From Lycium barbarum (taxonomy: Eukaryota; Streptophyta; Magnoliopsida; Solanales; Solanaceae), in the NCBI RefSeq assembly GCF_019175385.1, contig NC_083339.1, positions 28,921,637-28,985,636 on the forward strand: 64,000 bases of DNA. The letters run 5' to 3'. The position numbers were made by a program, and so were the translations under genes. Position 1 is the stretch's first letter, and the number at the start of each line of letters is the position of its first letter. Below are positions 1,930 to 63,765 of the stretch, piece after piece. The notes beneath the pieces are model-generated. The model saw nothing but the letters and a program-made list of their open reading frames with translations. It made no database searches and was not told the DNA's origin.

Positions 1930-1931
1930 AT

Positions 1932-1943: not shown

Positions 1944-1970
1944 GGGTTATTTCTAAAAGGTTAACACCTA

Positions 1971-40364: not shown

Positions 40365-41702
40365 TGATACTCCCAACTTACACCTTTAATATCAGGAGTA
40401 AGCGGTCGTTGTCAAATATAGAACCTGTCGAATCCCACAGAGAATACAATGAAGAAATATACTTATTAAGTGTAACAATCAACTATTAGTCTATATCTCA
40501 AGGGAGAGGGGAATATAATAGTAATTGGGTTGTTGTTTGTTCATAAATGACTAAGAGTTGTGATAAGATGTAAACTATTGGTAAAAGGGACTAAGGTTGT
40601 GGTTCCATTGGAAAGTAATGTGCTTGGGTATCAATTCAACTTATTCATATGCCTAGATGTATTAAACCAAGGGTCACGTGAATCTTGCTAAAAGTTTTCC
40701 AACCAAATTAGCAAATTTCATCCTTGGCTTTTCCAAGCCCTAGAATGTTTTATATGAGAACACCCATTTAGCCTCAACTAGCTTTCCTATTCCTAGCTCT
40801 AGCTATTAGATGGATTTAATGACCCAAATCGTTGCTATTAACTCTTTTCCTAACCTCTACTTTCTTTTCCAAGCAAAGTAATGGTAATAAGGCACAAGTA
40901 ATGTTGCACACCATCACAAGACATTAACGCACAAAGAGTTAATAAAAAACACCATTAGCATATAAATGAAGTATAAATATGAAACCCAATCACATAACTA
41001 ACACATTTGGTCCCACAACCTTAGCTAATGAGTTTAGCCACAAATATTCATTAAAAGTAAAGCAATAGTAAAAAGTGTATTCATAAAGCTTACAAAAGTA
41101 TTGAATGGAGAAGATGACAAAAGCAAATGAATCTCTTAAAAGCTTCACCAACCAATAATAAATGAGCTCCACAAAAAGACAACTTAAAAATTTGTAGAAT
41201 AATGAGTCCAAAACCCTAGAAATCTATTTATATACTTTCCAAAACAGGAACAATTTCTAGACAAAAATACCCCTGCGCATCTGGTGCAAATCGCACTTGG
41301 TGTCGCATGTTGCACCAAAGTTTCGCAGGTACTGCATCTTCAAGCAGCTGTGGTGCAACATCTGCTGCATCAGGTGCGACTCGCATGCACCACATGCGCC
41401 TCGCAGGTGGTGCTCACATATGCTGCACCACTATCTTCAGTTCTGGGCATTTCTGTCATCAGATGCTGCAGCACCCGCGACTCGCATGCGGTACATGCAA
41501 CTCGCATGCGGTACATGCGACTCGCAGGTGATGTTTTGGTTCTCTTTATCTTGTTTTTGCTTCATTTTGTCTCAAGTTGCTTCCAACACTTGTTAATCTA
41601 CAAATCATCACAAAAACATGAGAAAGGACATCAAAAGTACTTGTGGATTCATAGATGACTAAGCAATTGGCATCGAATGCGCCGTAATTTCACGGCACAT
41701 CA
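40365..41702 (-). repeat. Athila-2 3' LTR
   Basis: 1338 bp; on the plus strand TGATACTCCC...GGCACATCA. Nearly collinear with 52369-53719. TATA box (minus strand TATAAAT) at 41226-41232, preceded in transcription order by a TGCGAnTCGCA cluster at 41275-41535. It lacks most of a 27-bp palindrome present in the other LTR. Confidence 0.92.
41275..41535. promoter_or_regulatory. Palindrome cluster TGCGAnTCGCA upstream of TATA, Athila-2 3' LTR
   Basis: Repeated GCGACTCGCATG, GCCTCGCAGGTGG and GGTGCAACAT-type motifs, many as odd palindromes around TCGCA. They lie immediately upstream (in element orientation) of the TATA box, and are GC- and CG-rich against an AT-rich LTR. Confidence 0.8.
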
Positions 41703-43671
41703 ACACCCCTAAACTTATACTTTTGCTTTTCCTCAAGCAATTAAAGAAAAACTATAATGTATGATTATTGCTAAGGTACTACAGTGATGAAAGTAATCAG
41801 TTAAACACACCCATTTAAAATATGATTTCCCCTCCCTCTTGTTGCCAAATATGGTGCATTTCCTCAAAGGTCGAGCATTAACTAACCGCTTCACTTGGTG
41901 ACAGAATGTTATTCTAGCTTTTAAGGGAATGGCTTCAAATTATGCGTCAAGAAGTAATTCTTTCATTAAGCTTAGTAATTCACACGCCCTCACAAAAATA
42001 CCAAAGAAAGTCCCACACACACATATTCACAAATAGCAACTCGAACAAAAGACGAATAAGGAGAGAACAACTCATACTCATAAAGGATGATGTACAAGTA
42101 CACAAATGTGATGCCATAAGCTTGCCCTTTAAGTATTTCTCCACTAATATAAACACACTTTGTTCAAAATCAACTAGGACTTGCGGGTTATAATGAAGGT
42201 TCGGGGTTAAGGTGGGGTGTATTTTGGGTAAGAGTGACTTGACGTCTCCCTAAGCATTTTCGAACACGCTTCCTTCACCTAATTCGTCCCGTCTTCATCA
42301 TTTAAGAATTTACCGCCCATTAGTACCTCCTTTAGCCAACACCATTATTACCTCCCTAGCTTCCCCATTTATTTCTTAAGTCACAACTGTTATTTACACA
42401 CTCCTGTTCACAACTACACATACAATCTATATGTACATATACACACCTTTTTATAAATATATATATATATATACATATACACTTTTTTTTAGTGTGCCCT
42501 TTAACTTTCCATCACATACCGCACCATTTTTTGCCAACCACCACTCCCAAACTTAGGCGTTTTTGCCTATTTTAGCATATTTGAATTACTTAGGGAGATA
42601 GGTTTCCAAAAGATAAGTAAACAAGGGACAAAAAGGGACAGGGCTTATCACTAGGTCGAACTAAAAGAAAAGAAAAACCAAGTTAAGGCTCGAAAAGGGG
42701 TTAACTAAGATAGATATGCAATGGGTAGGAATATTTAGGTTTAGTGGCGATCCAAAGAAAGCCTAATATCCTTTTTCAAACAAGTGTAGTTTAGGATTTC
42801 GCCTTTAGACACTTTTCGAGCAAGTTCTAGATCACAATTATGTACAAGATTAGAACAATAACATCTCACAACACATGGCATATGGATTACTTGACTATCT
42901 TCTAATTACTTCTCAACCCATCATTCTATGCTTTGCAAAACAACTACGTCACCAAATGAGTCATGTTAGTGTTACTTCTTCCCTCTAAGTACATATGTAC
43001 TAAAACAAAAAAAATGGGAGGAGTATTATTAAAACAAGATGGAAACAATAATAAGATGAGAACATTTATGCTATTAACATATCAACCATCACTATCATAC
43101 TTGGCAAGGAAAAACTAGGAGTACGCAAAACATAGCAACAAAATAAAACATGAATCATGAGCTATTCCACCTCTAACAAAAGAATATGCAGTGTCCCCAA
43201 TGCATCAAAATGTAGTACAAGAGATGAGTAGCTCACAAAGGACGCATCAGGCATCCGGTGGTGTCTGATCAGCAGGAAGGACTTCCAATAGAGGCACTAT
43301 CAACGGGGCCATCTCAGCACTACACCCCACCGTCACCGCTGGCTCAGGTGTCACTATATCAGGGCCTACGGACGAGGGTAATAGCATATTAGCTGGGGGA
43401 GCGGCCGATGAACTGGCCTCACCTGCTCTCGGGGATGGGGTGCCCCCTTAACTCTCTACTCGCCTCAAAGGACTGTTACACGGCCACAAATGTGTCAATA
43501 TCGTCCCCCGAAATACTAGCAGCCTATGCTGAAGCACGTGCCTCTCTCGAGTTGTGTGCTCTGTTGCACCAGCGTGAGGGTCACTCTCAAACTCCTCTTC
43601 AGACTCTTCTCACTCTCCTTCTCCTCCTCTTCTTCTTCTTCCTCATTTTCTTCTTCTTCCTCAGCCACCTC
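41703..43671 (-). other. Athila-2 purine tract and long 3' untranslated region
   Basis: The purine tract on the minus strand is TATAAGTTTAGGGGTGT, next to the 3' LTR. About 1.9 kb of non-coding DNA follows, with a TA/TACA microsatellite near 42460. It is similar in organisation and in short blocks (CCCAACTTAGGC) to the equivalent region of Athila-3 (58093-59758). No protein-like ORF was found. Confidence 0.7.
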
Positions 43672-45235
43672 CTAAACTCCTTTCCCAGAAGGCATGGCAG
43701 GTGTTGTGGGCCTAATGGAGAATAATGATGCACCGGATGGTACAATGGGTGCACTGAGCTCAATGTATAAAACTTTCAACACCCGAATATCCTCCTTGAC
43801 CTTTGCCAGGTCTGCCCGAATGGCTGGGAGTCCTCCTTCACCACTTCCCTCAATCCGCTCTAACCGAAGATCGATCTGGCGTACATGCTCCGTAATTTTG
43901 TCCTGCTCATTTTGAATATCTGTGACAGCCTGAGTATATGGTGCCATCGCTGCGTCAATAGCCTCTTTTACAAAATTAGGAAGCTACTCTACCAGCCAAT
44001 TTACCTTAGCATCCGTTGCCCGAAGCACTCGTATACCCTTACTAGAAACACCATGAGCTGCTGTGATGGATGGTGGAATGAGAGAAGAGGGACCTGTAGT
44101 GGAAGATGGAGCACTTGGAGGGTCAAGCCCCGTAGCGGGAGGCATTGAACTAGGAGTTATAGCATCATCATCTGTGGCCAAGTCCTCGAGCTCAAGAATA
44201 TGAGCATCATCATCTCACCCACTTTCTCTTTCTAGTCCCCGGTTCCAACTTGGTGTAATATATTGTTTGGTCAGCCTTTAACATTTTGTCCACCCGAGGA
44301 ATATCACGAACCTTCTTTCTGTGGCATAATTCAGTGATCAAGCAAGGAAAAGGGAATGATGTTCCCTTTTGAGTGGACTTATTATTAATATCATCTCTAA
44401 TAATTACCCCCACATTGACGAGGTACCCGGACATGAGTGAAGCAATGAGAATACATTTTGCAATGGGTATGTCGGTGTTGTTCCTGGAGGGAATCACCCG
44501 CAATGATACTAGTGATAGCTAAAACTTAGGTTCGTGCTTGAAAGTGTTCTTCTCAATGGAGATAGATGGATCTAGCCATGGTGGAGTCCCTGAGGCAATC
44601 ACTGAAGCAACCCACTCTTGTTGTTCCTCCGGGTTCTCCATCCTTAATTCATATTCAAAATTCACCGGAGACCAACCTTCAATGGGGTCAGTTTCTCTTC
44701 GCTGCTCATAAATGATGGAAGCTATGGTATCGGCAGCGCAATCAATATCCTTTCCCCGAACCGGAATCCAACAGAAGTGTTCCACATTGTTTTTGGTTGG
44801 TGGCGCGAGATTTTTGCATTTAACTTGGCCGCATAAAATTCCATCACAAGGGCAGGGCAATATTCAGCCGGTTGCATGAAATAGGTCCATCTCAACGCCT
44901 CGAGCTTACGGATGATGCCCGGGCATTGGTCCTGTAGACCATTCAAAGTGACCCTCTTTTCTACAATGAAGCCCCGGACTGGATTTCCATCGGGTTTAAT
45001 AACACTCCAAGCCTTGTACAGGTACCTGGATCCAGGCATAGTGAACCTTTGCTCCACCGCTTCCCTCCTCTCACTTCTGTTGATGGCATCCTCGGGCTCA
45101 GGTGAGGAAGTCTCATGCGTCCCCTCTTCAGACAGGGGGACCGGATCCTCAGGTGACTTTTCCTTTCTTCTAGAGGTGGACGCTTGTCGTGTTGCCCTTT
45201 TCCCTCCACCTTGTGCTTTATTTGTTCGAGCCATC
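43672..45235 (-). pseudogene. Athila-2 extra 3' ORF: putative plant transposon protein (PF20167-like)
   Basis: The ATG at 45234 lies one base after a splice-acceptor-like TTGCAG. A basic, low-complexity N-terminus (A-R-T-N-K-A-Q-G-G-G-K-R) is followed by W-T-Y-F-M-Q-P-A-E-Y-C-P-A-L and V-M-E-F-Y-A-A-K-L. After a frame break come C-W-I-P-V-R-G-K-D-I-D and E-W-V-A-S-V-I-A-S-G-T-P-P-W. Next is I-P-S-R-N-N-T-D-I-P, then V-N-V-G-V-I-I and F-P-C-L-I-T-E-L-C. F-Y-A, V-R-G-x-x-I and the closing L-I-T-x-L-C mark the family I know as 'putative plant transposon protein'. A Ser/Pro-rich stretch and a coiled coil (I-R-A-D-L-A-K-V-K-E-D-I) finish it at 43672. Its role is unknown. Position after pol is that of the env-like ORF of Athila, but no membrane segment is obvious. 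Confidence 0.75.
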
Positions 45236-45530
45236 CTGCAAGTCACACAAAAATATACCCACTATTTATGGTGCTCTTAAAGTAAAAAGAAAGAAGCAAG
45301 GCAAAACATAGGAAAGCAGGGTTGCATCACCTGCGAAACACCACATGCAAGTTGCATGTATGGCATGCCACTCGCATATAGTGTCGCAGGTGCTGCATAA
45401 TTTGAACTTCCATTTTGTTCTTCACTGTCAAAACCTGCTGCGGCAGGTGCGATTCGCATGTTCAACATGCTACTCGCAGATGCTGCACGCAGGTGAAGCA
45501 TTGAACACATTTTTGTTGAAGTTTTTTTTA

Positions 45531-45587
<57 letters not shown>

Positions 45588-46178
45588 ACACATATTCACA
45601 GGCAATCACATTTGTATACACACAAGACCATACTCATGTAACTATTTCCCTTAAGCAGGTTGTCACCCCGTCTATCATTGGGAAAAACTATTTAATCATT
45701 CGGTCCAATGTTCGATGGTCATCCCTAATAAAAGACAATGTTAATTTTACAATTCTGAGGGCATCATGGGTCCTATTCTATAGGTAATGTGCTTTGGGTA
45801 CACAATAATTCCCCAAGGTTGGCAAATGATCACACTTCCATAAAATCTAAGCACACAAAAGGCCATTTAGGCATTTCATCAAACAAGTTGTGAACATTCA
45901 TCAACAATCAACTATTACGATAATGGGTACTCAAGAATTCCCCAGTTGTCACCTAATTATTCATCAACAAACACTTTTTTAATCAACCTAGTAGGACTAC
46001 ACAAGCATGGGTACTTAAGAATTCCCCATTGTTCATCAATTCCCAACAACCCACACAATGCACAAGATAATTCTTCACCAAACTAACTAATTACAATAAG
46101 TGGAATGGAATGGCAATGACATGGATTGAAGCATTTCTTAGGCATCACTTAATGTAAAGAATAGTAGAGTGTTCATAC
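45236..46178 (-). other. Predicted leader intron of the Athila-2 extra ORF
   Basis: Minus-strand donor CTCAAG/GTATGAAC at 46178 and acceptor TGTGACTTGCAG ending at 45236, one base before the ATG. The 943-bp interval contains a palindrome cluster (45325-45495) and a TA microsatellite (about 45545-45580). Predicted from consensus only. Confidence 0.45.
45325..45495. promoter_or_regulatory. Palindrome cluster within the Athila-2 leader intron
   Basis: CACCTGCGAAAC, GCATGCCACTCGCATA, GGTGCGATTCGCATG and CTACTCGCAGATGCTGCA: the same TGCGAnTCGCA/GCAGGTGCTGCA vocabulary as the Athila-2 LTR cluster, just upstream of the extra ORF. Confidence 0.75.
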
Positions 46179-46439
46179 CTTGAGAGTTGATGAAAGTTAG
46201 CACACTTGAAAAAGCTTTACCAAAATGAATTAGAAAAAAACCCTAGTTATGATTTGTGGAGTGATTAGGAATGATTGGAGTGATATGGGGTGATGGAATG
46301 ATATAGGAGGGAAGAGGGAGAAGGAGGACAGGGAAAAGGAAGGGACGTAACTGATAAAACCATCTGTTACGTTCCTTTTATTTAAAATTTAAAAATAAAG
46401 ATGAGTCGGGTCGACAACTGTCCCGTGAACTTCTCACTT

Positions 46440-46620
46440 ACCTGCACAACATGCAACTCGCATGTGGTGCAGCATGTTGAACATGCGAATCGCATGTTGT
46501 ACATTTTTTTCGCACCTGTTGACAGAGAATGTGGCCTTCTTGGCCTGCAATTTCGCACCACCTGCGAGATGCAGGTGCTGCAGCAGGCATGACATGCGAG
46601 TGGCATGTGCTTAGCATGTT
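46440..46620. promoter_or_regulatory. Palindrome cluster between Athila-2 pol and extra ORF
   Basis: CATGCGAATCGCATG, GCAACTCGCATG, CACCTGCGAGATGCAGGTG and ACATGCGAGTGGCATG, the same motif set as the LTR. In element orientation it precedes an AT-rich TATA-like stretch (46371-46405) and a C/T-rich leader (CTGTCCTCCTTCTCCCTCTT), suggesting an internal promoter for the extra ORF. Confidence 0.7.
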
Positions 46621-46806
46621 ATGCCTGTTGACAGTTTCCCAACTCTTCCTTTTTGTGACACAACTTACTCCTACACACTTAAACACACATCAAAAACATC
46701 ACGAAAGTTAAAAAAAAAAAAAAACAACAAACACATAAAAATGAAAACTTGGGTTGCCTCCTAAGAAGAGCTTGATTTTACGTCGCAGCACGACGTTGGT
46801 ACCTTT

Positions 46807-48204
46807 TCATGGCTCATTAAGGAAGAATACCTCAATAATCTTTGCTTCAATCTGGGATCCCAAGTAATGCTTCACCCTTTGCCCGTTCACCTTGATTTTA
46901 TTGCCACTTGGGCAAACAAGTTCAATTGCTCCATGTGGGAACACTCGGGTTATTTTAAATGGGCCGGACCATTTGGATTTCAACTTTCTGGGAAACAACC
47001 GGAGCCTTGAGTTGAACAACAATACACGATCCCCGAGGCTAAATTGTCTTTGCAAGATCTTCTTATCATGGAAGTGCTTCATGTGGGTCTTGTAGAGTGA
47101 AGAGCTATCACAATCTTTAAGTCGAAATTTATCAAGCTCATTAAGTTGTTCCATCCTCAAGTTTAAAGCGTCACCCCAATCTAGGTTCAACTTTTTCAAG
47201 GCCCACAATTCCTTATGTTCAAGTTCCATCGGAAGATGATAAGCTTTGCCAAATACCAATTGATAAGGAGACATGCCAATTGGTGTCTTGTAAGTCATTC
47301 AGTAGGCCCATAGAGCATCATCCAAATTCTTTGACCAATCGGTCCGATTAGCATTCACTGTTTTAGAGAGTATGCTCTTGATCTCCCTATTTGAGACCTC
47401 TACTTGTCCACTTATTTAGGGATGATATGGGATGGAAAATTTATGCTTTACTCCATACTTCTCAAGAAGAGTCTTGAATAACCGGTTGCAAAAATGGGAG
47501 CCCCTATCACTAATGATTGCCCTTAGGGTTCCAAACCTTGAGAAAATATGCCTCTTCAAGAATTCGGTGACACTCCTTCCTTCATTATTAGGGAGCGCAA
47601 TGGCTTCCACCCATTTAGACACGTAGTCCACCGCCATAAGAATGTACTTGTTGTTGTAGGAACTCACAAATGGACCCATAAAGTCAATGCCCCATACATC
47701 AAATAATCCAACCTCAAGAATCGGTGTCAGCGGTAGCTCATGACTCCTTGAGATGCCCCCATGCCTTTGACATTGATCACAGGCTTTCACAAATTCATGT
47801 GCGTCTTGATAGATTATTGTCCAATAGAAGCCACTTTGAAGAACCTTAGCTGCTGTTCTTGAGCTACTATGGTGTCCACCAACTAGTGATGAGTGACATG
47901 CTTCGGTGATGGGCATCATTTCTACTTCGGGTGTGCACCTCCTTATGATGTTATCAGTGCAAACCCGAAATAGAAATGGCTCATCCCAATAAAATTTCCG
48001 GGCATCACTCAAAAACTTTTTCTTTTGGTAGAAGTTCAAATTCTCAAGCATGATGTCACTTGCGTGAAAGTTAGCAAAATCGGCATACCAAGGGATCATG
48101 TCATGTGACCCCGCCATTACTTGCTCATCTGGGAATGACTCATTGATTTCCAGGCCAGCCAATGGACGCCCACCTTCTTCAAGACCAGATAAGTGGCCCG
48201 CCAC
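46807..48204 (-). pseudogene. Athila-2 integrase
   Basis: Zinc-binding H-H-C-C part (G-G-H-H...C-D-Q-C-Q-R-H), then the core D-D-E: G-I-D-F-M-G-P-F, I-I-S-D-R-G-S-H-F and [11 protein letters not shown]. The C-terminal end contains [15 protein letters not shown] and a K-W-S-G-P-F module usual in Athila integrases, stopping at 46807. Stops lie near 47416 and 47300. An ~1.4-kb stretch with all catalytic residues present but frame-broken. Confidence 0.93.
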
Positions 48205-48209
48205 TTAAT

Positions 48210-48660
48210 TTTCACAGCCCTTTCTATCTTTGACTTCAAAGTCAAATTCTTACAGGAGGATGACCCAACGTATCAACCTCGGTTTCGCATATTTCTCTGC
48301 CATGAGGTAACGTAGGGCTGCATTATTAGTGTAAAAAATAACATGGGTTCCCAACAAGTAAGCCCGGAACTTCTCAAAAGCAAACACAATAGCAAAAAAA
48401 CTCTTGCTCGGTGACAGTGTTATTCATTTGGGCATCGTTTAGAGTCTTGATTGCATAGTAAATTGGGTAAAAGATTTTATCACGTTTTTGGCCAAGAACA
48501 ACCCCCATGGAAAATCCACTTGCATCACACATCAACTCAAATGGTTGGGACCAATCCGGAGCAATGATGATGGGAGCAGATGTGAGTCTCTCTTTTAAGC
48601 CCTCAAATGCCTTTAAACAAGCATCATCGAATACAAACTTCGACTCCTTGTCTAACAATT
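48210..48660 (-). pseudogene. Athila-2 RNase H
   Basis: D-D-A-C-L-K-A-F-E-G-L-K-E-R-L, A-P-D-W-S-Q-P-F-E-L-M-C-D-A-S-G, then Y-A-I-K-T-L-N-D-A-Q and T-E-Q-E-F-F. This is the Ty3/Gypsy RNase H start with its D-A-S metal-binding Asp and T-E-x-E block. The frame breaks near 48374, after which K-Y-A-K-P-R-L-I-R-W-type sequence leads to integrase. Confidence 0.88.
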
Positions 48661-48675
48661 TTCATAGAGGGTTAG

Positions 48676-49710
48676 CTATTTTCGAGAAATCCTTGATGAA
48701 TCTTCTATAAAACCCGGCATGTCCAACGAAGCTACGAACACCTTTGACGGAGATTGGGGAGGAAGCTTGACAATAACCTTAATTTTAGCTTGATCAACCT
48801 CAAGCCTATTTTCTGAAATCTTATGTCCCAAGACAATGCCTTCTCTAACCATGAAGTGACACTTTTTCCAATTTAGAACCAAGTTCGTCTCTTCACATCT
48901 TTTCAATACTTGGGCAAGATTCTCCAAACATTCATCAAAGGAATCCCCCACCATGGAAAAGTCATCCATGAAGATTGCAATGGATTCCTCAACCATGTCA
49001 GAGAAAATAGACATCATGCAACTTTGAAAAGTTGCGGGTGCATTACATAGCCCGAAGGACATCCTCTTAAAAACAAAGGTCCCATAAGGACAAGTGAACG
49101 TGGTCTTCTCTTAATTCTCGGGAGCAATAGTGATTTGGTTGTACCCGGAATAACCATCAAAAAAGCAATAATAATCTCTTCCTACAAGCCTATCAAGCAT
49201 TTGATCCATGAATGGCATTGGGAAGTGGTCATTTTTGGTCCACTTATTCAACTTCCGATATTCCATGAAAAACCCTCAATCCGGTAATTGTGCGAGTGGG
49301 AATCTATTCATTTTTAGTATTTGCAACCACGGTGATTCCACCCTTTTTGGGCACGCATTGAACCGGACTCACCCAAGAGCTATCTGATATAGGGTACACA
49401 ACATCAGTATCTAACCACTTGATGATTTCGATCTTCACAACCTCTTGCATAGGAGGATTTAACCTCCTGTGATGTTCAACGCGTGGCTCACATTCTTCAT
49501 CAACTTGAATTTTATGAGTACAAATACCGGGCGGAATCCCATGGATATCCGTAATACACCACCCAATAGTTTTCTTGTATCTTCTCAAGATTACCATCAA
49601 TCTTTCTCTTTGCTCATCCGTCAACCAGGCGGAGATAAACACGGGTAATGTGTTGTTAGGTAAAAGAAACGCATACCTCAAATGTGAAGGAAGAGGTTTG
49701 AGATCAAAAG
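48676..49710 (-). pseudogene. Athila-2 reverse transcriptase
   Basis: Begins with L-R-Y-A-F-L...L-P-V-F-I-S-A and G-W-C-I-T-D-I-H-G-I-P-P. Next W-V-S-P-V-Q-C-V-P-K-K-G-G-I-T-V. After stops near 49300-49070 it continues with F-G-L-C-N-A-P-A-T-F-Q and the catalytic box I-F-M-D-D-F-S. Then G-H-K-I-S-E-N, ending at 48676. The catalytic Asp pair is intact. It converts element RNA to DNA. Gene order and motifs are those of Athila-like Gypsy elements. Confidence 0.93.
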
Positions 49711-49989
49711 TAGGAGCCTCAATAATTGAGGGCTTTGCGGGAGGAGTTGTTCGGTTTTGTAAATCAAGATCAAGCTTCTTTGGATTGTGGTAATATGACC
49801 CCAACCCAATCAATGCATTAACCGTCTCCTCAAACTCTTCTTCATTCTCCCCCTCATAGTTCATTATCACCGCCGCTAACATATCACCCATATTCTCATG
49901 CTTAACGGTTGTGTCCATGGTTTCATCAATTGTATCAATAACCGACACAACACTCATATCCGCCGGTTGTTTCATTGACTTGCAACTAT

Positions 49990-50330
49990 GGAAAGTGACC
50001 TCTTTATCATTCATTCTAAATTTTAGATCGCCCCTCTCCATATCCACAGGAGCACACCCCGTGGCCAAGAAAGGTCTTCCCAAGATTATGGCACCTCGAA
50101 ATCAACATCACAATCCAAGATCATGAAATCGACTGAAAAAATGAATCGATCAACTCTCACAAGCACATCATAGAGGATACCAACTGGTTTCTTCAAGGTT
50201 CTATCTGCCATTAGCAATCTCATTGTTGTGGGTCGGGGAATGCCCAAACCCAACTTGTTAAAGATAGCGAGCGGCATCAAATTAATGCTTCCTCAAAGAT
50301 CATATAGTGCTTTGGTAAATTTATACATCC
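49990..50330 (-). pseudogene. Athila-2 aspartic protease
   Basis: A-L-Y-D-L-stop-G-S-I-N-L-M-P-L: the expected D-L-G-A-S active site has a TGA in place of the first Gly codon and Gly for Ala. Downstream are L-L-M-A-D-R-T-L-K-K-P-V-G-I and V-D-F-M-I-L-D-C-D-V, then G-R-P-F-L-A-T-G, the usual Athila protease continuation. A second frame break lies near 50086. It cannot be active as read. Confidence 0.88.
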
Positions 50331-52310: not shown

Positions 52311-52344
52311 AGTTTTACACTAATTGGTAAATTTCTAGACCGTA

Positions 52345-52362
52345 TTCCCCGGTAACGGCGCA
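52345..52362 (-). other. Athila-2 primer-binding site (tRNA-Asp type)
   Basis: Minus-strand TGCGCCGTTACCGGGGAA lies a few bases after the 5' LTR end. It matches the Athila-type tRNA-Asp site (TGGCGCCGTTGCCGGGGA) with two changes. Confidence 0.88.
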
Positions 52363-52368
52363 TAAATT

Positions 52369-53719: not shown

Positions 53720-54404
53720 TCTACCGAAAGGAAACCATAACCTACCTCATGGACGAGCAGGTTCCACGAACATCCAATGACACCTCAATTAATTACCACC
53801 GTGTAATCCATATGAATAGCTCAGAGACAACCATGAGGCCCAAGAGTAGAATTCACCTTTAGGACCCTTTTTTAGGACTTCGAAATTGCTAAGGTAGATA
53901 TGGAATTTTATCCTACCTAAAAGTTCACTATCACAATGCTAGTTGGTCAATCAACCCTTATTTAGGACATTCATGACCATATCCAAGTCACTTGTTTGGT
54001 CAAATTGCCATTTTAAGCTTGTTTCAAGAAACCCATTTTCAAGATCTAAAATAGAGACCCCTAAGTGTTTTAATAGGGTAGGTGAAGGATTAGGTTGGGG
54101 GATCATGTTAGGATGATAAGGATAGAAAAATATTCCAAGGACTTTATATCAAGAAGGACAAGGGTTCATCATTTTGGAACTTGAGAGATTTGAGATTGCC
54201 ATTTATGACTCTAGACAAGGATCCTTAATGAGAATCAATATTGGGAGAATGGATGGAAGAGGTTAGGGAAATAACCTTTCCCAAGAAAGTATCATTTTTT
54301 GCTCCAAAATTACTCTAAAGGCGATTGGACTCTCTAGGGTTTTGAGAAATGAAGTTAATTCCAAAAATGTCACTTAAATAGGTAGGTGTACCACGGCCAA
54401 CACG

Positions 54405-54505
54405 CCGCTATGGCGGTTGAGCAGTCATATGCGGTTACTGCTATGGTGGTTGGTATACCGCTACAGCGGCACTACTGTAGCGTCCACGCGACCGCTGTAG
54501 CGGTC
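54405..54505. promoter_or_regulatory. Palindrome cluster CCGCTAnnGCGG in the chromovirus LTR
   Basis: CCGCTATGGCGG, CCGCTACAGCGG, CTACTGTAGCG and CCGCTGTAGCGG within 100 bp, about 165-265 bp inside the LTR start and just before CTATTTAAGTG (minus strand: CACTTAAATAG lies on the plus strand at 54372). Same relative position as the cluster in the solo LTR. Confidence 0.8.
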
Positions 54506-54669
54506 TGGCTCTATTTGTTTGTTCACACCTATATTGCTTACGCGATGCGCACGACGATCTTGGTTTGGCTTGAAAGGTTTCCAAGATGCGAGAAGGTGGA
54601 GACATCGTTAAGCCCCATAGTTTTTGCCTTCTTTAGAATTTCACAGTAACGACGAAATGGGTCGTTACA

Positions 54670-54930: not shown

Positions 54931-54959
54931 GAGTATACCCCCAAAGTTTCAAAATTTTC

Positions 54960-55140
54960 ATGGGCGGAAGTCGTAACTGCCTTAGCGGCCATATTACCGC
55001 CAGGACAGCACCGCTACGGGGCCAGACTGGCCGCTATAGCGGTACCTCGAGATATCAAGGGCACCGCTATAACTTTCCCTATATCGCCCCGGCGTAGCTA
55101 CTGCAGTGGCCCCGTCACCGCAACGGCAGCCCTACTGCAG
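54960..55140. promoter_or_regulatory. Palindrome cluster upstream of the plus-strand extra-ORF leader
   Basis: CCGCTATAGCGG (55031-55042) and variants CCGCTACGGGG, ACCGCTATAAC, TACTGCAGTGG and CCTACTGCAG, followed by the TATA-like TTTTAAAGG and a C-rich leader. Equivalent in position to the Athila-2 cluster at 46440-46620, but with a different motif. Confidence 0.7.
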
Positions 55141-55411
55141 AATTTTAAAGGACCTCAGTCCCTTCTTCCTTTTATTAACTCCCGATCCCACTTCGAAAAC
55201 CCCTCTATATTCCTCAAAACTCCTACTCCCATTTCACACCTAATCATACCACAACTCTAGCAACCATCCCCTTTCCCTACTAAACTCAATTTAGCCTCCT
55301 CAATCACTCACTTTTTCGTACCCACAAGAAGAGAAGAAAGAGAAGAAGGAGAGAAAAAGAAAAGCCAATACAAGGAATCCATCTCCCCCTACCATTGCAC
55401 TATAAGATCAG

Positions 55412-56122
55412 GTAAAATTTTGTTTCCCTCTGGCTTCATAGTTAATCAATCACCACTGCACTCTAAACAACAACTCAAGGGTTGGATTTTGGTAACACTA
55501 GTTGGGTTTCTGAACTTTAGGTAACTACACAATTTGGACCAATTTTTGGAGTAATCTGAACTAATTAATCGTTAGGATGGTCTTCCCTTTGCACTTAGCG
55601 TGATCATAACACAGATTTGAGGCACAAAACTTGAGCACAGTAAAGAAAAATTCTTGAAATAGATTATAGGGTTTATCAAGAATTTTGGGCTAGTTTTTTG
55701 TTAGAATAGCACCCAAATGGGTTTTAAACTTCATGCATACTGGTTTTTTCCCCGATCATTGCTTCAAAACACGTTTTTAATCAAAAAATTATAACTTGAA
55801 ATTTGGGAATTTTGGTTCACTGCTCGATAAGGTGATACCGCTGCAGCGGTACACTGGCCGCTACAGCGGCACCGCCGTGGCGCTCAACAGGCCGTTATGG
55901 CGGCTCACCCCAAACATTACTGACCACTGTGGCGGTCTCCTTTCCGCCATAGCGGTATCGCCATGGCTGTCTGCAGGCCCGCTGTGGCGGTTATTGCAGG
56001 TTCTGCATCAGTGCAGTCTGCGGTTAGGCACTCGTTTACTCAATTTTTCGCTTTGATTCTTGTTAAATCGACACACAATTGATAAGTCTCGAGAACTGAC
56101 ACGTTTTTAAATTTTCTCGCAG
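55412..56122 (+). other. Predicted leader intron of the plus-strand extra ORF
   Basis: Donor ATCAG/GTAAAATTTTG at 55412 and acceptor TTTTCTCGCAG ending at 56122; 711 bp. It contains a CCGCTAnnGCGG cluster at 55835-56005. The exon beyond the acceptor is open. Predicted from consensus only. Confidence 0.5.
55835..56005. promoter_or_regulatory. Palindrome cluster in the plus-strand leader intron
   Basis: ACCGCTGCAGCGGT, CCGCTACAGCGGC, CCGTTATGGCGG, CCGCCATAGCGGT, TCGCCATGGC and CCGCTGTGGCGG: a dense run of the CCGCTA-type palindrome in the middle of the predicted intron. Confidence 0.8.
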
Positions 56123-56619
56123 GCACAATAGCTGAACACGGGGAACAAGTACCTAAAATCCAAGGGGCGGTGCCCCAAAACATAGAAGTCCCTGCTTACG
56201 AGAATCTTCCCACTCGCCAGAGTAAACGGCTACATCTGGAACAGAGGTCCATGCCTTTACTATTGGAGCGGGTGTTTGACATGACCAATATGGAGAGGCG
56301 GGCTCTGGATTTCTGGAACAGGTTGGTGCCAACCAAGTGGACTCGCTTGGTCCGAAACCCAGGGGATTACAATGAGTCATGGGTCAGGGATTTCTATACT
56401 ATGCTGCCTTCGGTAGACGAGGATACCCCTAGCCCGGTGATTATAATAAGGGGTACTCTCGTGAAAGTGGGGGCAAGGGCTATCAACCGAATTTACAGGC
56501 TAGATGATCATCCCGAGGAGCCTTATAAGGAGAAAGCGGCGGAGAAGGATTTGATGTGGTTGGCCACCCAGTTGGTGGAGGCAAGTGATATACCAAAGGT
56601 TCCCTGGGCTCATAGTGGG
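56123..56619 (+). pseudogene. Plus-strand extra ORF: putative plant transposon protein (PF20167-like), truncated
   Basis: Open from the splice acceptor to the Athila-3 insertion point (165 codons). Motifs are N-L-P-T-R-Q-S-K-R-L, R-A-L-D-F-W-N-R-L-V-P-T-K-W and W-V-R-D-F-Y-T-M-L-P, then I-I-I-R-G-T-L-V-K-V-G, A-I-N-R-I-Y-R-L-D-D and D-L-M-W-L-A-T-Q. It is homologous to the extra ORFs of Athila-2 and Athila-3 through the F-Y, R-G-x-x-V and I-N signature. The first Met in the open frame is M-P-L-L-L-E-R-V-F. It is cut by the LTR of Athila-3, so the C-terminal half lies beyond the window if it survives. Confidence 0.75.
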
Positions 56620-58092
56620 TGATACACTCAAATAACACCTATGAGTGGTGTAGAGCAGTCGTTGTCAAATATAATAACCCAAACAAGGTTGGGGTCGAAT
56701 CACACAGGGAATATGGAGAGAAAAGGGTACTAATTGTATGCGATACTAGTCTTTAAAGGCTTTAATCCTATTCCGAATAGTTTGAAATATTTGTTGTGTA
56801 ATGTAATTGAAGACTTTGACTTGAATTGTACTTAATGCAAGAGAGAGACTAAGGTTGTGTTCCCCACTTTGATTAGATATTATGCTTCAGGTTTCAATGT
56901 GATATACTTCTAATGGTTGTTCTAAGAGTATGCACTTGATCTCTTAAGGACTTCCTAACGTTTCCCAACAGTTAGGCCGTATTTCCTCTTTATGATTTTT
57001 CCAAATGTAAAAGAGTTGAACTTGAAGAGCAACCAATAATGCCAATTAGACTTGTTCTTATCCCTAAGTTAGTCTATTAAACGAGGGTTAACGCCCCGAG
57101 TCATTGTCATTCAATCTTACCAATACTAACTCTCTTTCCCAAGAAAAGTTAGTATAATGGCTTAGGCTAATGCTTGCAATCATTACCCACGCTAACGCAC
57201 AAAGATATAATAAATACCAACAACCATTATGCATATATCAATAATAGAAACCTATTCACATAATACCCATCATAGGGTCCACAACCTTAGAATTAAAATT
57301 AGTTACTCATCATTTTGGTTAACCAAGAAAGCTTAAAAGTTAACACAATGTACTTACAATGCTAATACAATGTGGAATGAGGGTGAAGTTGGTGCTTTAA
57401 ATGCTCCAACCACTTCAAAAATATCCAAGGCTTAAAGTTAATGCTCTAAAAGATCAGAATGAATGTTAAAAACTTAACTTTAAGTATTTATAGGGCCAAA
57501 AATCGCGCCAAAGTTCTGGACAAAAACACCCTTTCGCGGCATCGTTATGGACCGTAACACAAGTTACGATCCGTCCTTCGGTTCCATCTTTTGTCGGCTC
57601 GATATAGGTCAACCGTTACGGCTTATTGTGACGAACCGTAACACAGGTTACCGTCTGTATCTTCCAGCGGATCATGGCTTCAGTGTTCAGTGAGCAATGC
57701 GTTACGCCATGATGTTACGCCCTGTAACCTGCGTTACGGACCGTCCTTCTGGGCGTAACATGTGACACTACTTCGGCTTCTTACTGGAAATTTCCTTCAT
57801 ATTACGGTACACGTTACGGCCCGTAACATGAGTTACGGACCGTCCTTTATAGCGGCACGTATCTGGATCTTCCTCTCTGGGTACGGATCACGTTACGATC
57901 CATAACTCAAGTTACGGACGGTCCTTCTGCTCCAAGTTGTCCATTTTTCAGCATTTCTTATCATTTCCATTCCTTAGTCAACCAACCCTACAAAACACCA
58001 AAATAACATAAGAAACGATGTAAAAACACTTAAAAACAAGCAACACTTCTAGTGAAAAAGACATAAAATGTGCCAAAATTCACGGCACATCA
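56620..58092 (-). repeat. Athila-3 3' LTR
   Basis: 1473 bp; plus-strand TGATACACTC...GGCACATCA. It ends like the Athila-2 LTR (ATTCACGGCACATCA) and its purine tract on the minus strand is AAGTTAGGGGTGT. TATA box (minus-strand CTATAAATA) at 57486-57493, with a palindrome cluster immediately upstream. Confidence 0.9.
57535..57930. promoter_or_regulatory. Palindrome cluster GTTACGGnCCGTAAC upstream of TATA, Athila-3 LTR
   Basis: A full 15-bp palindrome GTTACGGCCCGTAAC lies at 57813-57827. AGTTACGGACCGTCCTT and close variants recur near 57562, 57732, 57831 and 57910. The cluster spans about 400 bp ending 40 bp from the TATA box. Confidence 0.85.
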
Positions 58093-59758
58093 ACACCCCT
58101 AACTTAAGCTTTTGCTTGTCCTCAAGCAACTACAACAAGACTCACTACTAACACACGACATCTAGCAAAATAAGAATGCCTACGGTGGTTTTGGCATGTG
58201 TTTCTAACACACACTCTTCAATCCAAGAAAAAATATTGGGCTCTTATCCACGTCCTATTTGTGACACAAGACGCACATTTTAGAACAATTGCAATTCACT
58301 ATGAAATCTCAATTAATGACACAATCATAGTATGGGAGTCTCTATGTATATGAACTTCAACTTCCGGAAAGCCAGTTACTTCGCAATCTACAATCCTTAC
58401 GCCCTCACATAGATCAAAGAATGTCCCAACACACATATTTACAAAATAAATGGGACAAGAGACTAAAGAGACAGAAAGACACTCACACTCACAAAGAAAT
58501 TTACATACCATACTTGCACATACCATAGGCTTGCCTTTATTTTCCATGCCTTCAACTTTGAACAATTTGACTGTGATCACATTAGGACTTTTAAGGCTTG
58601 TCACATTGGCTTAGGGACGGGTAGGATAAGTATTTGGACAGTGGTGACTCACGCTCCTTGACACTTCATTTTGACTTCATTCACCTTTTTTCCTTTTATT
58701 GTTGACCCTACAGCTCCGGCGTGGATTTATTTAGAACTTATATATCTATATACATATACATATATATATATACACACACCATTTTTTAAGTCTATTCTAA
58801 CCACACCGAATCATGCCCCGCAATACTCACGATCACCCCCAACAGACATTTGGCCTCATTTTCCACATCTTTCACTTATCACCCCCAACTTAGGCTTTTA
58901 CCCTCATTTTCTGCATATTTCGCTTATCACACCCAACTTAGGATTTTAGTCTATTTTGTCATTCTTTAGTATCAAGCAGGGACTTGGTGCCAAATGGGTT
59001 TATTCACAGAAGGGGTGTAGGTTAGTTAATGGCTAATCAAAGAAAAAGTCTATACGCTCAAAATGGAAGACTAGGGATCATTTTCTGTACAGGCTAGGCT
59101 CATTTAAGATGAACATGCTTTGGAGTCAATACAAAGAAAGCCTAAGATCACTTCACAATCAAACTCTCCTTCGAATTCACGCACGACCAACCGGGCAAGT
59201 TCTAGATTACAAGCATCATACACAAATAGAAACTAAGAACTCACAACACAATGGCATAAGGATTGTTTTAATACTCTGACTTGACTTCCGTTTGAAGATT
59301 TCACACACATGGACACCCTTTATTTGCAATGTCATTAAAAGAACCATATATGTCAATATCAACAACCCATTCTTGATGTACATCACAAATTATTTTTCGG
59401 AGGGATATCATTGACTCGTAAAACACTTTTAGATATGCCAGAAAACACGGACCACCACCACTTAAGTCATCCTTACTTTACTTTTAATTAAACATCCTAA
59501 ACATGCCAGGTTCAACATAAAATAACACTTTTTGGGAAAAGAACACATGGCAAAGAACAACCGAAGAAGGTCCTAAACACATAATTAATATCACAATTTA
59601 AGATAAAAACAATACCAAAAAAAACAAAAACAATATCCGATACCAAAACGATACCAACAATACCACCGATTACCCTACACCCCCAACTTAGAAACATGCA
59701 TTGCCCTCAAGGCCTCTATATAATCCATCAATAGAATGTAGGGCCACCCTAGAGCGCA
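58093..59758 (-). other. Athila-3 3' untranslated region
   Basis: About 1.7 kb without coding potential. A segment CACCCCCAACTTAGGCTTTT is duplicated within 58835-58945. A TA-rich microsatellite lies near 58745. Organised like 41703-43671. Confidence 0.65.
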
Positions 59759-62700
59759 CTAGGCACTTGGATCTGCTGCAGCATCATGAGGTTGGATAAC
59801 CTCAGAGGTAGGAACAATGGTGGTATCAGGCTTGCCAACACTAGAAGTCCCAGTCTCAGTGGGTGGAGCAGAAGTATGGTGAGCCGACTCAATGGGATGG
59901 GCTGAGCTAGAAGTCGCTCCAGTGGTGTCAGAACTCAGCCGGGACTCATGTCGGATCTTCTTCAATGTTCGCCACTCCTCTTCCTCATTCTGTGGGCGCA
60001 AGGCATCAAACAGATCAAGACTCTTGAGAATGGGATCAAGGTTTTCATCATCTAGCGTGACTCTCTTGCGCCTCCCTTTAGCCAAACAGTGGGTATCCTC
60101 TTCCAACTCCTCCTCTTTCTCCTCATCAACCGTTTTCTCGATCTCATCATCCCCAAGTTGATTCTGAACCTGCTGATATAAGCTTTGTACCAACTCTGTG
60201 TGTACTTTCGGAATCTGGTCTGTCACAACAGCCACTTCCTGTGCCTTCAATTTCTGAACATCATCCTTTAGTGTCCGCAACTCACTCCGAACAGTCCCCA
60301 ATTCCACAGCGGGGTGTGTCTTAGTCAGCTCCGTCATTCTGTTCTCAATACCATCTATCGGAGAGTGGATCTGTAGGTGGTCATCTTCTATCTGTTCTTT
60401 TATCGGCCTTAATGCTGCATCAATAGCCTTTTTTGTGTACAATTTCAGCTCGGTCATGAGCTGCTTGACCTGTCTATCTGTTCTATCTGCTTGCAGGACC
60501 ACTCCCCAAAATTCTCTCGGTTGAAAATCATCTTTCTTGCAAGTTCGGGTGGGACTCCCGGTATGGGCTGAGCTAGTGCTGGGCTCGCTCCAGTGGAAGA
60601 GGTGGGACCACCCGAAGTAGATGGAGCTGGAGCTGGCATGGGCTGTGGAGCATAGTCTGCCGGTGGAGCCTCAGAATCTGTAGGCTGACCCGCAGCAGTT
60701 GCCTCAGCACCCATGATAGCTAAGGGTAGAACATCTGATCCCGTTGGCCCCTCCGGCACATCAGAAGACGAGGCAGATGGCATTGTACCTTGGCCCAACA
60801 TATCATCTCTGCCCTTTATGATGTCATAGATACTCCTGGCAATCATACTGTGGTCAATAAAGGGGAGGGGTTCTAGTTCCTCGCGCAGGCATAAGAACGT
60901 GAGCAAACATGGATGAATCAGGGAAGTGGCTAGTTGTGTGGCTCTCTCCCGGAGATCTGCGGCTACCAGTCTTTCGATGTTGATCTTATACCTCGACATA
61001 AGGGCAGCCACAAGAATAGCTCTGTCCGGAGTCAAATAATTATCTGGTTGGGTAGGAAGGATGCGGAACAGAACAATCTGCCACCAAAACTTTGCCTCAG
61101 GTGTGAGGGTATTTTTCTAAATCCTCGTAGTGGCTGTCAACTTTGGCACTATTGCCCATTCGGGATCTGCCGACCGTGCAATCACTGAGGCTACCCATTT
61201 TCTGACTGAGATTGTATCTTTCTGTGCAATTTTGTAGACAAACTCTCCTTCTTCCGCCGCTGTAGGCTCAATATAATCTTCCCCGAATAGTACTTTACTG
61301 ATGGTCATCAGAGAAACATCAATCACTACTACCTCATTCATGGCCGGCACTTGAGTTGCGCGCAGCCCTTTTTTCTATGCTTTGAATACAGCAGCCCCAT
61401 AAGAAGCGTAGAATTCCCGAACAAGAGTCGGGATGTAGGACCCCATAGGGTTTTTCAAAAACTCTAAGAGAAAAGACATGTTTTAACCCCTGAACTTGGC
61501 ACGAAAACTAACTTTAGCAACTAAACTTAACTTCTATTTATTTACCTCCCTTAACAACTTACGTTTCAATTATTTTCCACCCTAAAAATATAATACCACT
61601 CTCACAATGGGAGGTGTATTACACTCGCGCCACGTCATTGCCACGTCGTTGCCATATCATTGCCATGTCAAAATTACCAACACATCATTTTTTGTTTTTC
61701 TTTTCTTATTTTTTTTCTTTCTCTTTCTTCTTCTTTCTCCTTATCCTCACCCTACTTTTATCAACCACCATGCCGCTGCTACCGCCGCTGCTACCGCCAA
61801 CGCCGCTATTGCCGCCTCCGCCACCGCAAAACATTAGACGAACTGCCCTTAAAACAAATCATCACCATCATCTTTAACCCACACCCACCACCACCACCAT
61901 CATCTCCCCACCAAATTTCATCAAATTCCTTAAAAGAAAAAAAAATCACCACCACCATCTTTAACCCACATCCACAACCACCACCATTTCTAGCAAACCC
62001 ATTTCTTCCACCACTATTATTAGCAAACTCATTTCTTCCATAACTTTATTTTTGAAAGAAAATCAAAATACCCACATCCACAACCACTACCATTTCTAGC
62101 AAACCCATTTCTTCCACCACCATTATTAGCAAACTCATTTCTTCCATAACTTTATTTTTGAAAGAAAATCAAAATCAAAATCAAGAAACCAAAACATGGT
62201 GAAAATGAAAAGCAAAAGAAGCAGTTGGGGGAGGGGGGCTGTGGCGGGGGGGGGGGGGGCTGTGGAGTGGGAAGAAAAATAGCTGGGGGTGGGGATGTGG
62301 CAGGGGGGCGGGGCTGTGGCGGGGGGGCGGGGCTGTGGAGTGGGAAGAAGATGGTGGGTGGGGTTGCGGAGGGGGAGGGGGATTGTGAAGAAGATGGTGA
62401 TGGTTTTTATTTTTATTTTATTTTTTAATTGTATAATGTTTATTTTATTTTTTAATTGTATAACCTTTATTTTATTTTTTAATTTATAATAATATATATA
62501 TATATGAGCGGGTCCACTTTTTTTGTTTTTCACTCTCTTAAATTTTTTTTTTGCCACGTCAGTATTTAGGGTGGAAAACAATTGAAACGTAAGTTGTTAA
62601 GGGGGGGGGGGGGGGTAACCACTTTTTTTGTTTTTCACTCTCTTAAATTGTTTTTTGCCACGTCAGTATTTAGGGTGGAAAATAATTGAAACGTAAGTTG

Positions 62701-63332
62701 TTAAGGGGGGGGGGGGGAGGGGGGTAAATAAATAGAAGTTAAGTTTAGTTGCTAAAGTGAGTTTTCGTGCCAAGTTCAGGGGTTAAAACATGTCTTTTCT
62801 CAAACTCTAACTTATGGAAGCGGAGAGTGTCACGGATGCCCGGATATCCATCAAGACCATCGAAGCTGACGTTCTGTTCCTCGAAAATACTTCTCTTCGG
62901 GCCCTGCCCCTCATGCATTTCTAGCTCACACCCTTTTTTGTACAGTTCTTCAGACCCCTCTATAGAAAACCGGAGATCCTGCTCATACACAGCCCTCATC
63001 CGGAATTTAGTCTCTCTTCTTTCCTGCTCGCGCTCTTGTCCGCGCTCCTCCGCAGTAGGCTGTCTAATGGGTGGTTGTGGTCGGTGAGGTGGTGTGACAG
63101 CCTCCCTAGGTCTACTATGGTTTGACGAACTAGAAGAACTCTCCTCATTAGACGAGGAGGAACTTTCGGATGGTGAGGCCGGCCTGCTAGGTGCAGCGAG
63201 CTTCTTTGTAGCCCTTGTGTCTTTGAGTTGATCTTCATCGCGCAATCGTGAGGTTACTTTGCTTGCACCGCGACCTTTTCATCTGCCGGCAACCTTGGGT
63301 GCAACCTTCTTTCCTTGCCTTGGGTTACCCAT
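59759..63332 (-). pseudogene. Athila-3 extra 3' ORF (PF20167-like), split by a Mutator-like MITE
   Basis: The ATG at 63332 lies two bases after an acceptor-like TTTAACAG. The N-terminus is basic then Ser-rich, with one early stop. It reaches F-D-G-L-D-G-Y-P-G-I and R-F-H-K-L-E-F at the MITE. Beyond it the frame resumes with G-S-Y-I-P-T-L-V-R-E-F-Y-A-S, then a stop, V-R-K-W-V-A-S-V-I, N-Y-L-T-P-D-R-A-I-L and L-T-F-L-C. A Pro/Ala/Ser-rich spacer and a coiled coil (R-T-L-K-D-D-V-Q-K-L) follow, with an acidic tail ending at 59759. Removing the MITE and one target copy keeps the frame. Same domain order as Athila-2. Function unknown. Confidence 0.75.
61468..62801. mobile_element. Mutator-like MITE with long TIRs and G-rich interior
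   Basis: 1334 bp starting GAGAAAAGACATG and ending CATGTCTTTTCTC, with inverted repeats of more than 100 bp. It is flanked by the 9-bp duplication AAACTCTAA (61459-61467, 62802-62810). Long TIRs and a 9-bp target are the mark of Mutator-like elements. In the right TIR a ~105-bp block containing poly-G runs is tandemly duplicated. The interior has CCACCA-rich DNA, a ~115-bp tandem duplication (about 61960-62170) and a very G-rich stretch (62225-62390). No transposase ORF; non-autonomous. Confidence 0.9.
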
Positions 63333-63419
63333 ACCTGTTAAAGGCAAAGTTAGCTATGATACACAAGAAGCTTTTCAATTATACAACTTATTGGTTGAAG
63401 TTCAGGACTTCAATTAGCT

Positions 63420-63765
63420 CATGCACCGTAACACGGTCGACGGAATGTCGATGGTGTTACGGGTCGTATCTTCAACTGTAACTCATTTGATTCATTTATA
63501 ACACAGGAAACGTAACACGTTCGATGGACCGTCATACGTGTTACGGTCCTTAACAACTTACCGTATCGTGACCCAAATTTCCAGAAACTTTTGTGGAAAT
63601 CATAGGTGTTACGGTATGATGTTACGGACCGTCAAACGTGTTACGGTCCATAAGACCTCACCGTAACTTGACCAAAATTTCTAGAAAGTTTTTATGAAAA
63701 TCATAAGTGTTACGATGGGGTGTTACGGTCCATAACGCACGTTACGGCCCGGAACACTGAATGTC
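63420..63765. promoter_or_regulatory. Palindrome cluster upstream of the Athila-3 extra ORF
   Basis: GTTACGGACCGTC, CGTGTTACGGTCC(A/T)TAA, GTTACGGCCCGGAAC and CCGTAACACGG variants. Same vocabulary as the Athila-3 LTR cluster and placed, as in Athila-2, just upstream of the splice-acceptor-like sequence before the extra ORF. Confidence 0.8.

Follow-up and report, generated by a model that had tools for sequence, protein, structure and literature searches.

A close precedent for the arrangement described here comes from the Sireviruses, Ty1/copia retrotransposons whose repeat motifs (RMs) are, in the available portions of the paper, palindromic, element-specific in consensus and, in all but one case, built on a CGG-CCG core (Bousios et al, 2010; PMC2829016). 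Their copies in the long terminal repeat (LTR) lie upstream of the TATA box and others lie upstream of an extra gene (77 of 79 linker copies), while four elements without the gene have LTR copies only (PMC2829016). The same portions call the RMs a Sirevirus feature, in comparison with classic Ty1/copia elements, and state that an internal promoter could not be identified. Here, we show that this pattern recurs in another superfamily: in a 64,000-nucleotide stretch of the Lycium barbarum genome (the window; C3:28921637-28985636), which is rich in transposable elements, the two minus-strand Athila-like elements, Athila-2 and Athila-3, together with a further element, F, and a solo LTR, carry arrays of short CG-containing dyads. 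As with Sirevirus RMs, most motif classes are palindromic with a CGG-CCG core, and they are clustered upstream of the TATA box in the LTR and in front of an extra gene only where that gene is present. However, the present carriers belong to the Ty3 superfamily, and the intron position and spacing rule described below do not occur in the portions of PMC2829016 that were available.

Other systems share single features with these arrays. For the VANC21 motif YAGTATTAY of VANDAL DNA transposons, both binding and demethylation have been shown, and VANDAL motifs, as far as the available part of the source goes, are short, lie in non-coding DNA including introns and termini, differ between relatives and expand in tandem, as the present ones do (PMC5735166). 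In contrast, the present motif is a CG dyad carried by retrotransposons, and the VANC comparison is an analogy only. Ty3 elements of the Retand/Grande type have accessory antisense genes with domain PF04195, and the title of a paper cited in that source names the Grande accessory gene's own promoter (Gomez-Orte 2013, in PMC11963269). Here, too, an extra gene lies between pol and the 3' LTR, in antisense in element F, but its domain is PF20167, and the part of PMC11963269 available does not present the tandem repeats of Retand/Grande as CG dyads. CG-dyad arrays in Athila or chromovirus LTRs, a position in a leader intron and a rule of pairs 19-20 bp apart were not found in searches of the open-licence literature. 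The tobacco Ty1/copia element Tnt1 has variable, cis-acting repeat boxes in U3 that differ between subfamilies, and is like the present elements in these variable U3 repeats and unlike them in that our carriers are Ty3 elements with internal copies; we know of no internal copies of the Tnt1 boxes. Variability of the Tnt1 LTR is also mentioned in the available portions of PMC2829016.

In the window, the letters of the dyads agree within each element and are nearly exclusive between the three elements. Each element has an array (a) upstream of the LTR TATA box, and carriers of a PF20167 gene have a second array (b) before the apparent internal promoter of that gene and a third (c) in its predicted leader intron. 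The elements, arrays and open reading frames (ORFs) are as follows.

15317-18111, plus strand: solo LTR, TATTT on both sides; array at 15535-15790, class TACGGnCCGTA.
38184-40366, minus strand: element F 3' LTR, second part; ends GGTCGTGACA at 38184.
40367-53719, minus strand: Athila-2, whole; LTR pair 90.3% identical over 1363 columns.
40367-41702, minus strand: Athila-2 3' LTR; 90.3% identity with the 5' LTR.
41270-41540, minus strand: Athila-2 array a in the 3' LTR, class TGCGA/CATGCG; TATA box downstream at 41234-41224; 10 TGCGA half-sites, 0 of 1000 shuffles as high.
43230-45246, minus strand: Athila-2 extra ORF, broken by stops; PF20167 in two pieces (2.1e-17 and 9.4e-5).
45325-45490, minus strand: Athila-2 array c, within the leader intron predicted for the extra ORF; 6 TGCGA half-sites.
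46440-46620, minus strand: Athila-2 array b; internal TATA-like box (46386-46374) and CT-rich stretch downstream; 7 TGCGA half-sites.
46807-52376, minus strand: Athila-2 gag-pol region; integrase, H2C2 and RNase H domains and a piece of reverse transcriptase (RT).
52377-53719, minus strand: Athila-2 5' LTR, pairing with the 3' LTR; sequence like a primer-binding site (PBS), GCGCCGTTACCGGGGA, at 52361-52346.
53295-53560, minus strand: Athila-2 array a in the 5' LTR; 9 TGCGA half-sites; TATA box 53251-53241.
53725-54669, minus strand: element F 3' LTR, first part; starts TGTAACGACC at 54669, continued at 40366-38184.
54385-54525, minus strand: element F array a, class ACCGCTA; directly upstream of TATA-like CCTATTTAAG at 54382-54373.
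54975-55135, plus strand: element F array b, on the promoter side of the antisense extra gene; TATA-like at 55143 and 55204.
55412-56122, plus strand: element F predicted leader intron; donor and acceptor both rank 1.
55825-56015, plus strand: element F array c, within the predicted leader intron.
56123-56622, plus strand: element F extra ORF, first part; PF20167 2.2e-13; cut by Athila-3, resuming at L031:7465.
56622-58092, minus strand: Athila-3 3' LTR; 92.2% identical to the 5' LTR at L031:5971-7399.
57530-57945, minus strand: Athila-3 array a, class GTTACGGnCCGTAAC; TATA box 57493-57484.
59750-63335, minus strand: Athila-3 extra ORF; PF20167 in one piece (1.9e-8, below Pfam's cut-off); insertion at 61468-62801.
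63415-63760, minus strand: Athila-3 array c; lies in the leader intron predicted at 63885-63335.

Half-sites were counted on both strands in ten defined clusters, delimited by eye in the window. TGCGA occurs 9, 10, 7 and 6 times in the Athila-2 clusters, never in the five clusters of Athila-3 and element F, and once in the solo LTR. TACGG is found 10 times in each of the two Athila-3 clusters, not in Athila-2, and 0, 1 and 0 times in F, and CCGCTA 3, 5 and 2 times in F, not in Athila-2 and once in one Athila-3 cluster. When the top CG 5-mer was learned in one cluster and tested in the others against 1000 dinucleotide shuffles, the same within-element pattern emerged. An earlier note on this DNA, made from its letters alone, had claimed palindromes at a, b and c in Athila-2 and motifs that are alike within an element and different between elements; both observations are borne out by these counts, the second also by the shuffle test, with few exceptions. 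The 5-mer CGCTA of F array b is also present in two CACTA-like subterminal arrays, with 4 and 5 copies, GCGAC of the CACTA-like arrays reaches 4 in one Athila-2 LTR, and the F clusters are weak for any single exact 5-mer, as 41, 110 and 26 of 1000 shuffles match their best count. The subterminal GACGG/GCGAC arrays themselves, beside CACTA-like ends at 20040-20300 and 14040-14410, are mostly distinct from the retrotransposon arrays. An unbiased scan over the 64 kb (CG 6-mers at least 5 times, 5-mers at least 7 times, 250-bp windows) recovers eight of the ten defined clusters, solo LTR included, with Athila-2 array c and the cluster at 54385-54525 below the thresholds; apart from the defined clusters, only one region near 20 kb passes. 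All four Ty3-type U3s in the window (Athila-2 in both LTRs, Athila-3, F and the solo LTR) have the array upstream of a TATA or TATA-like box. Two descriptions had to be narrowed: dyads of the TGCGAnTCGCA type are present, but those of Athila-2 and Athila-3 are mostly imperfect, whereas five in the solo LTR are perfect; and the flanks, said to be homologous, are so at the DNA level for part of the LTR, the 3' untranslated region and pol, and by Pfam domain only for the ORF, but blastn at E 1e-3 found nothing in common between the b and c regions of different elements.

Athila-2 is flanked by a candidate target-site duplication, TCTAT/TCTAC, with one mismatch. Its layout, and the look of its RT piece, we take to be Athila-like, and this layout and its integrase and RNase H matches indicate that it is not a Ty1/copia Sirevirus. 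In both Athila-2 and Athila-3 the extra ORF lies in sense between pol and the 3' LTR and matches PF20167, as expected of the Athila lineage. The Athila-2 LTRs differ by 0.101 substitutions per site before the array, 0.085 inside it and 0.046 after it, and two 20-bp indels distinguish the 5' from the 3' LTR array. The array is no hot spot of CG loss, as CG-to-TG/CA changes account for 4 of 21 substitutions there against 11 of 42 after it. At 32376-32550 an Athila-type LTR has left a remnant that matches the LTR of Athila-2 at 75% identity over 177 bp; the promoter side of this remnant was not found. The insertion in the Athila-3 extra ORF, 1.3 kb long, has 84-nt terminal inverted repeats that are 98% complementary.

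What the earlier note took for a plus-strand fragment with a third motif at b and c does not look like a piece of an Athila element; it appears to belong to an LTR element on the minus strand, F, carrying the extra gene in antisense. The third motif class exists, but the cluster at 54385-54525 was rejected as position b, being located in the minus-strand LTR upstream of a TATA-like box; the true b is 54975-55135. The LTR of F was split by the insertion of Athila-2, and because no target-site duplication flanks it, it is presumably the 3' LTR. The PF20167 coding exon begins about 1.5 kb to the right of this LTR on the plus strand, and its second part, L031:7465-7692, corresponds to positions 107-177 of the profile (9.3e-9). 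A matching LTR end lies at L031:9150, next to a PBS-like TTGGTCAGAGCC of the minus strand, and F as a whole reads as one LTR element in which the antisense gene is part of some 3.7 kb of internal DNA. Seven of its pieces were scanned with Pfam: none matched gag or pol, and one matched PF20167. A further array of F's own class lies at about L031:8684-8850, with spacings of 21, 34, 33, 20 and 34. Inside the right-hand LTR of F is another Athila-type LTR with class II (TCGACGG) sites (L031:9601-10000 and L032:1-986). A AAATACGGnCCGTATTT array at L032:7451-7750, considered as a contradiction of the right-hand Athila, was set aside, as its flank, without a blastn match, reads like a further minus-strand LTR, presumably of chromovirus type.

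Do the arrays of one element agree in other copies as well? Athila-3 runs from 56622 to beyond the window end, and its far half completes the layout of Athila-2 that the earlier note had ascribed to it as far as the window shows: position b (L031:428-753) is a GTTACGG array with centre spacings of 19, 76, 19, 80, 20, 83 and 19, and the 5' LTR array (about L031:6870-7243) has the element's own motif with spacings of 19, 65, 19, 67, 19, 79, 79 and 19. All further test sequences come from the window's own 1.67-Gb genome, in which a PF20167 search yielded 6302 first-look candidates, 150 of them scored and 30 loci examined; since these were chosen by profile score, degraded copies are under-sampled. 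Labels from the upstream 1.5 kb, in classes named after the loci had been seen, are class I (CATGCG) for 6 loci, class II (CGTCGA) for 13, class III (CGTAAA/CGTCAA/CGTATA/CGTAGA) for 7, L051 among them, and none for 4. An upstream array of its own is present at 25 of the 30 loci, and that of a 26th, L051, is a neighbour's (foreign flanks were checked by blastn at L051, L061, L053, L042 and L048 only). The downstream 1.5 kb is at background, with a best CG 5-mer count of 3-4 in 29 of 30 loci (the orientation of L062 was misread there).

For 12 of the 30 loci the upstream array was compared with an LTR array within 5 kb downstream. Both share the top 6-mer in five (L035, L036, L057, L058 and L061) and differ in the top 6-mer but agree in class in four (L043, L053, L055 and L056). 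In L039 the position-matched LTR array is class II (10 sites) and a second array 2.8 kb further scores 11; in L033 the LTR is class I and the upstream array too weak for a call. The sole clear mismatch, L051, does not serve as a counter-example, as its upstream array belongs to an abutting solo-type LTR (75% over 238 columns, 67% over 421). With all 12 loci permuted, 2 of 20,000 permutations agree as well. At position b, six of eight loci are clearly of the same class and one weakly so (L078), and L079 has no clear class. With L051 set aside, clear disagreement between LTR and internal classes, which the earlier note had named as telling against its idea, was seen neither in the far half of Athila-3 nor in these 12 elements.

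The extra gene reads as a separate predicted transcription unit, composed of array, TATA box, leader exon, intron with array and coding exon. Behind b, a TATA-like box is found in Athila-2, F, Athila-3 and six of eight further b stretches, and CT-rich sequence follows b in the window elements and the class II stretches. The best predicted donor and acceptor enclose c in all three units (ranks 1 of 96/73, 47/62 and 63/42), in Athila-2 at 46178 and 45236, both rank 1 in the unit. Among the three best acceptors, AG followed by ATG within two bases occurs in 14 of the 30 loci; L039 and L049 share that acceptor sequence but lack the ATG. The internal cluster lies upstream of the extra gene and is absent from three solo-type elements in which the gene was not found.

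The arrays share a geometry as well. Spacings of 19-21 bp, every one 19 or 20, make up 13 of 34 in the window when two mismatches are allowed and 21 of 49 when three are (random placement, 0 of 5000); of nine clusters, 5, 7 and 8 contain such a pair with up to two, three and four mismatches. Among the 227 spacings of the genome sample, 83 fall at 19-20 bp, none at 13-18 and one at 21-22, although these are not independent because of duplication within arrays; 35 of 38 arrays, one of them the foreign array of L051, have a 19-20 bp pair, where the null mean is 6.4 and the maximum 17 in 2000 simulations. Pairs recur at about 80-107 bp, and the 19-20 bp spacing is also found in two solo-type LTRs. 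Most classes share a CGGnCCG core, of which exact copies at the 30 loci number 59 upstream (one region being the neighbour's array) and 1 downstream; the commonest arms beyond it are TCGA in class II, TT[TG]A in class III and CATG in class I (8 arms only). The core is common and not universal, as the letters of Athila-2 (TGCGAnTCGCA) and F (ACCGCTATAGCGGT) deviate.

Such regularity might arise without any selected function, if tandem duplication and gene conversion homogenised CG-rich micro-repeats in each element. Whole 20-bp units have been gained or lost between the Athila-2 LTRs since insertion, and internal tandem repeats are present, which speaks for this account. However, the arrays sit beside promoters, arrays that differ in letters and lineage and cannot be aligned still share one spacing, and across the 64 kb only the region near 20 kb otherwise reached the scan thresholds, and we regard this account as very improbable. 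A role at the RNA level, in which palindrome hairpins of the genomic RNA feed small RNAs or act in packaging, seems only slightly less so. Palindromes in maize Sirevirus LTRs have reportedly been proposed as hairpins, and here each of the ten clusters folds more stably than shuffled sequence (sense z -2.4 to -7.7). For five control stretches z was -2.5 to +1.3, so that the weakest cluster overlaps the strongest control, and the folding excess does not separate the models because palindromes must fold better than shuffles. In addition, a dyad whose centre is 1 nt long cannot form a complete hairpin, and such a centre fits a DNA dyad better than an RNA loop; a fixed pair spacing of 19-20 bp is not needed for RNA, and the arrays are placed in front of TATA-like boxes and within a predicted intron.

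Who, then, would read the arrays? The solo LTR of the window, which we take to be of chromovirus type, has 10 TACGG half-sites at 15535-15790, and its class TACGGnCCGTA is the core of Athila-3, yet present in an unrelated LTR. Its family has 6868 first-look candidates, 40 of them scored and listed at an identity of at least 89%, with matches covering nearly the whole 632-base query, array region included. Internal regions between three solo-type LTR pairs contain gag in all cases and protease, RT and integrase in L085; matches to Retrotrans_gag, Ty3_capsid and SH3_Tf2-1 show that these are not Ty1/copia Sireviruses. PF20167 had no match among the 8 ORFs scanned of 10 listed, and no internal array was found in the three elements (best CG 6-mer count 3-4 per 300 bp); their LTR arrays are deduced from LTR matches spanning the array region. 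L083 and L084 have short internal regions that may have lost genes, which makes L085 the fullest case. LTR arrays thus appear to need no PF20167, while internal arrays appear to follow the PF20167 gene.

This bears on the proposal of the earlier note that the arrays form a co-evolving recognition code read by the extra ORF product or by a host factor. In its strictest form, which we consider unlikely, the PF20167 protein would bind the dyads of its own element and counter silencing in the manner of VANC, code and reader evolving together. A maximum-likelihood tree of the PF20167 domain DNA (33 rows, 8 of 30 inner branches starred) requires 8 changes of motif class, against a shuffled mean of 18, and none of 200 shuffles is as low. 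Athila-2 falls in the starred set of class I and unlabelled rows despite a best identity of only 59%; Athila-3 is placed weakly as sister to class III (82/74) and F to class II (87/83). The placements of F, Athila-3, L042 and Athila-2 are unsure because of a long-branch warning from the program. Motif class therefore tracks the ORF tree, a comparison that the earlier note had suggested, but this tree also tracks the whole element. Element F, though without a gag or pol match in the seven pieces scanned, keeps its antisense gene and matching arrays in the LTR and around the gene, and in sunflower an active Athila has a PF20167 product for which a nuclear signal is predicted, according to the available part of PMC11728184. 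A structure model of the intact ORF, built from a 15-sequence alignment, shows a largely helical domain (about 75-345) and, at the C terminus, a long helix (461-527) that could dimerise, at a mean predicted local distance difference test score of 50.7. With this low-confidence model, a search of the PDB gave no fold match to a DNA-binding protein or any other (46 listed, best E 1.5), and a PDB sequence search, protein searches and searches of viral_contigs and genome_contigs gave no relatives of use; a scan of viral_contigs for the Sirevirus motif gave 22 loci with a single site each and no arrays. Against this form of the proposal speak the solo-LTR elements without a PF20167 match, which belong to a family with the same kind of LTR array, and the recurrence of TACGGnCCGTA across LTR lineages. 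The arrays do not appear to be confined to PF20167 carriers and their relatives, and the extra ORF product is therefore not generally the reader, nor is it upheld as the sole one. The agreement of LTR and internal sites within an element is the part of the code idea that stands, and of the two readers suggested a host factor fits better.

From the observed positions, letters, spacing and class agreement of the arrays, and their occurrence in LTRs of a family whose examined members lack PF20167, we favour as the probable explanation that promoter-associated arrays of dyad pairs are sites for a dimeric nuclear factor, probably host-encoded, that serves the LTR and extra-gene promoters. The units would be dyads at the DNA level, mostly with a CGGnCCG core, in pairs 19-20 bp and so about two helical turns apart, to which a dimeric nuclear DNA-binding protein would bind. 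The bound factor may switch the LTR and internal promoters together, and we propose that, because one factor switches both, the letters have to stay alike in all arrays of an element. CG in the arms could render binding methylation-sensitive, the reader would most likely come from a host factor family with several specificities, and the internal promoter and intron would be in use.

Several points weigh against this explanation. Class agreement could persist through common descent of the whole element, and spacings within arrays are partly tandem-duplication copies, Athila-3 array c repeating at 101 bp. When any spacing may win, the window cluster counts are equalled in 143, 18 and 51 of 5000 simulations. 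Two class I b stretches, both ending soon after the array, have no TATA-like box, 4 of the 30 PF20167 loci have no clear upstream array, and the TATA boxes and splice sites are predictions made with a consensus and a splice matrix.

Two further features of the window concern other subjects. A direct duplication with an offset of about 2.9 kb occupies 1-4611 (88-91% identical in the blocks listed), and imperfect hairpin units at 33880-34357, the last three of about 74 bp, have ATGATACCATC/GATGGTATCAT arms and little CG.

A broader and more tentative idea, which we hold to be possible but not the likelier case, is that several lineages of plant LTR retrotransposons share a promoter code of fixed geometry and variable letters, built from pairs of mostly CGGnCCG-type dyads at 19-20 bp and read by a diversifying family of dimeric factors, with one spelling per element in the LTR promoter, the accessory-gene promoter and the intron of that gene, and with the PF20167 product as a modulator where the gene is present, such that elements may escape each other's regulation and partition regulatory space. 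The finding touches on how plant retrotransposons escape or invite silencing and on the role of their accessory genes. It provides a cis code that is legible in the sequence, with a geometry open to measurement and classes into which copies can be sorted. If true, one promoter design would unite Ty1 Sireviruses, Ty3 Athila and chromovirus-like elements.

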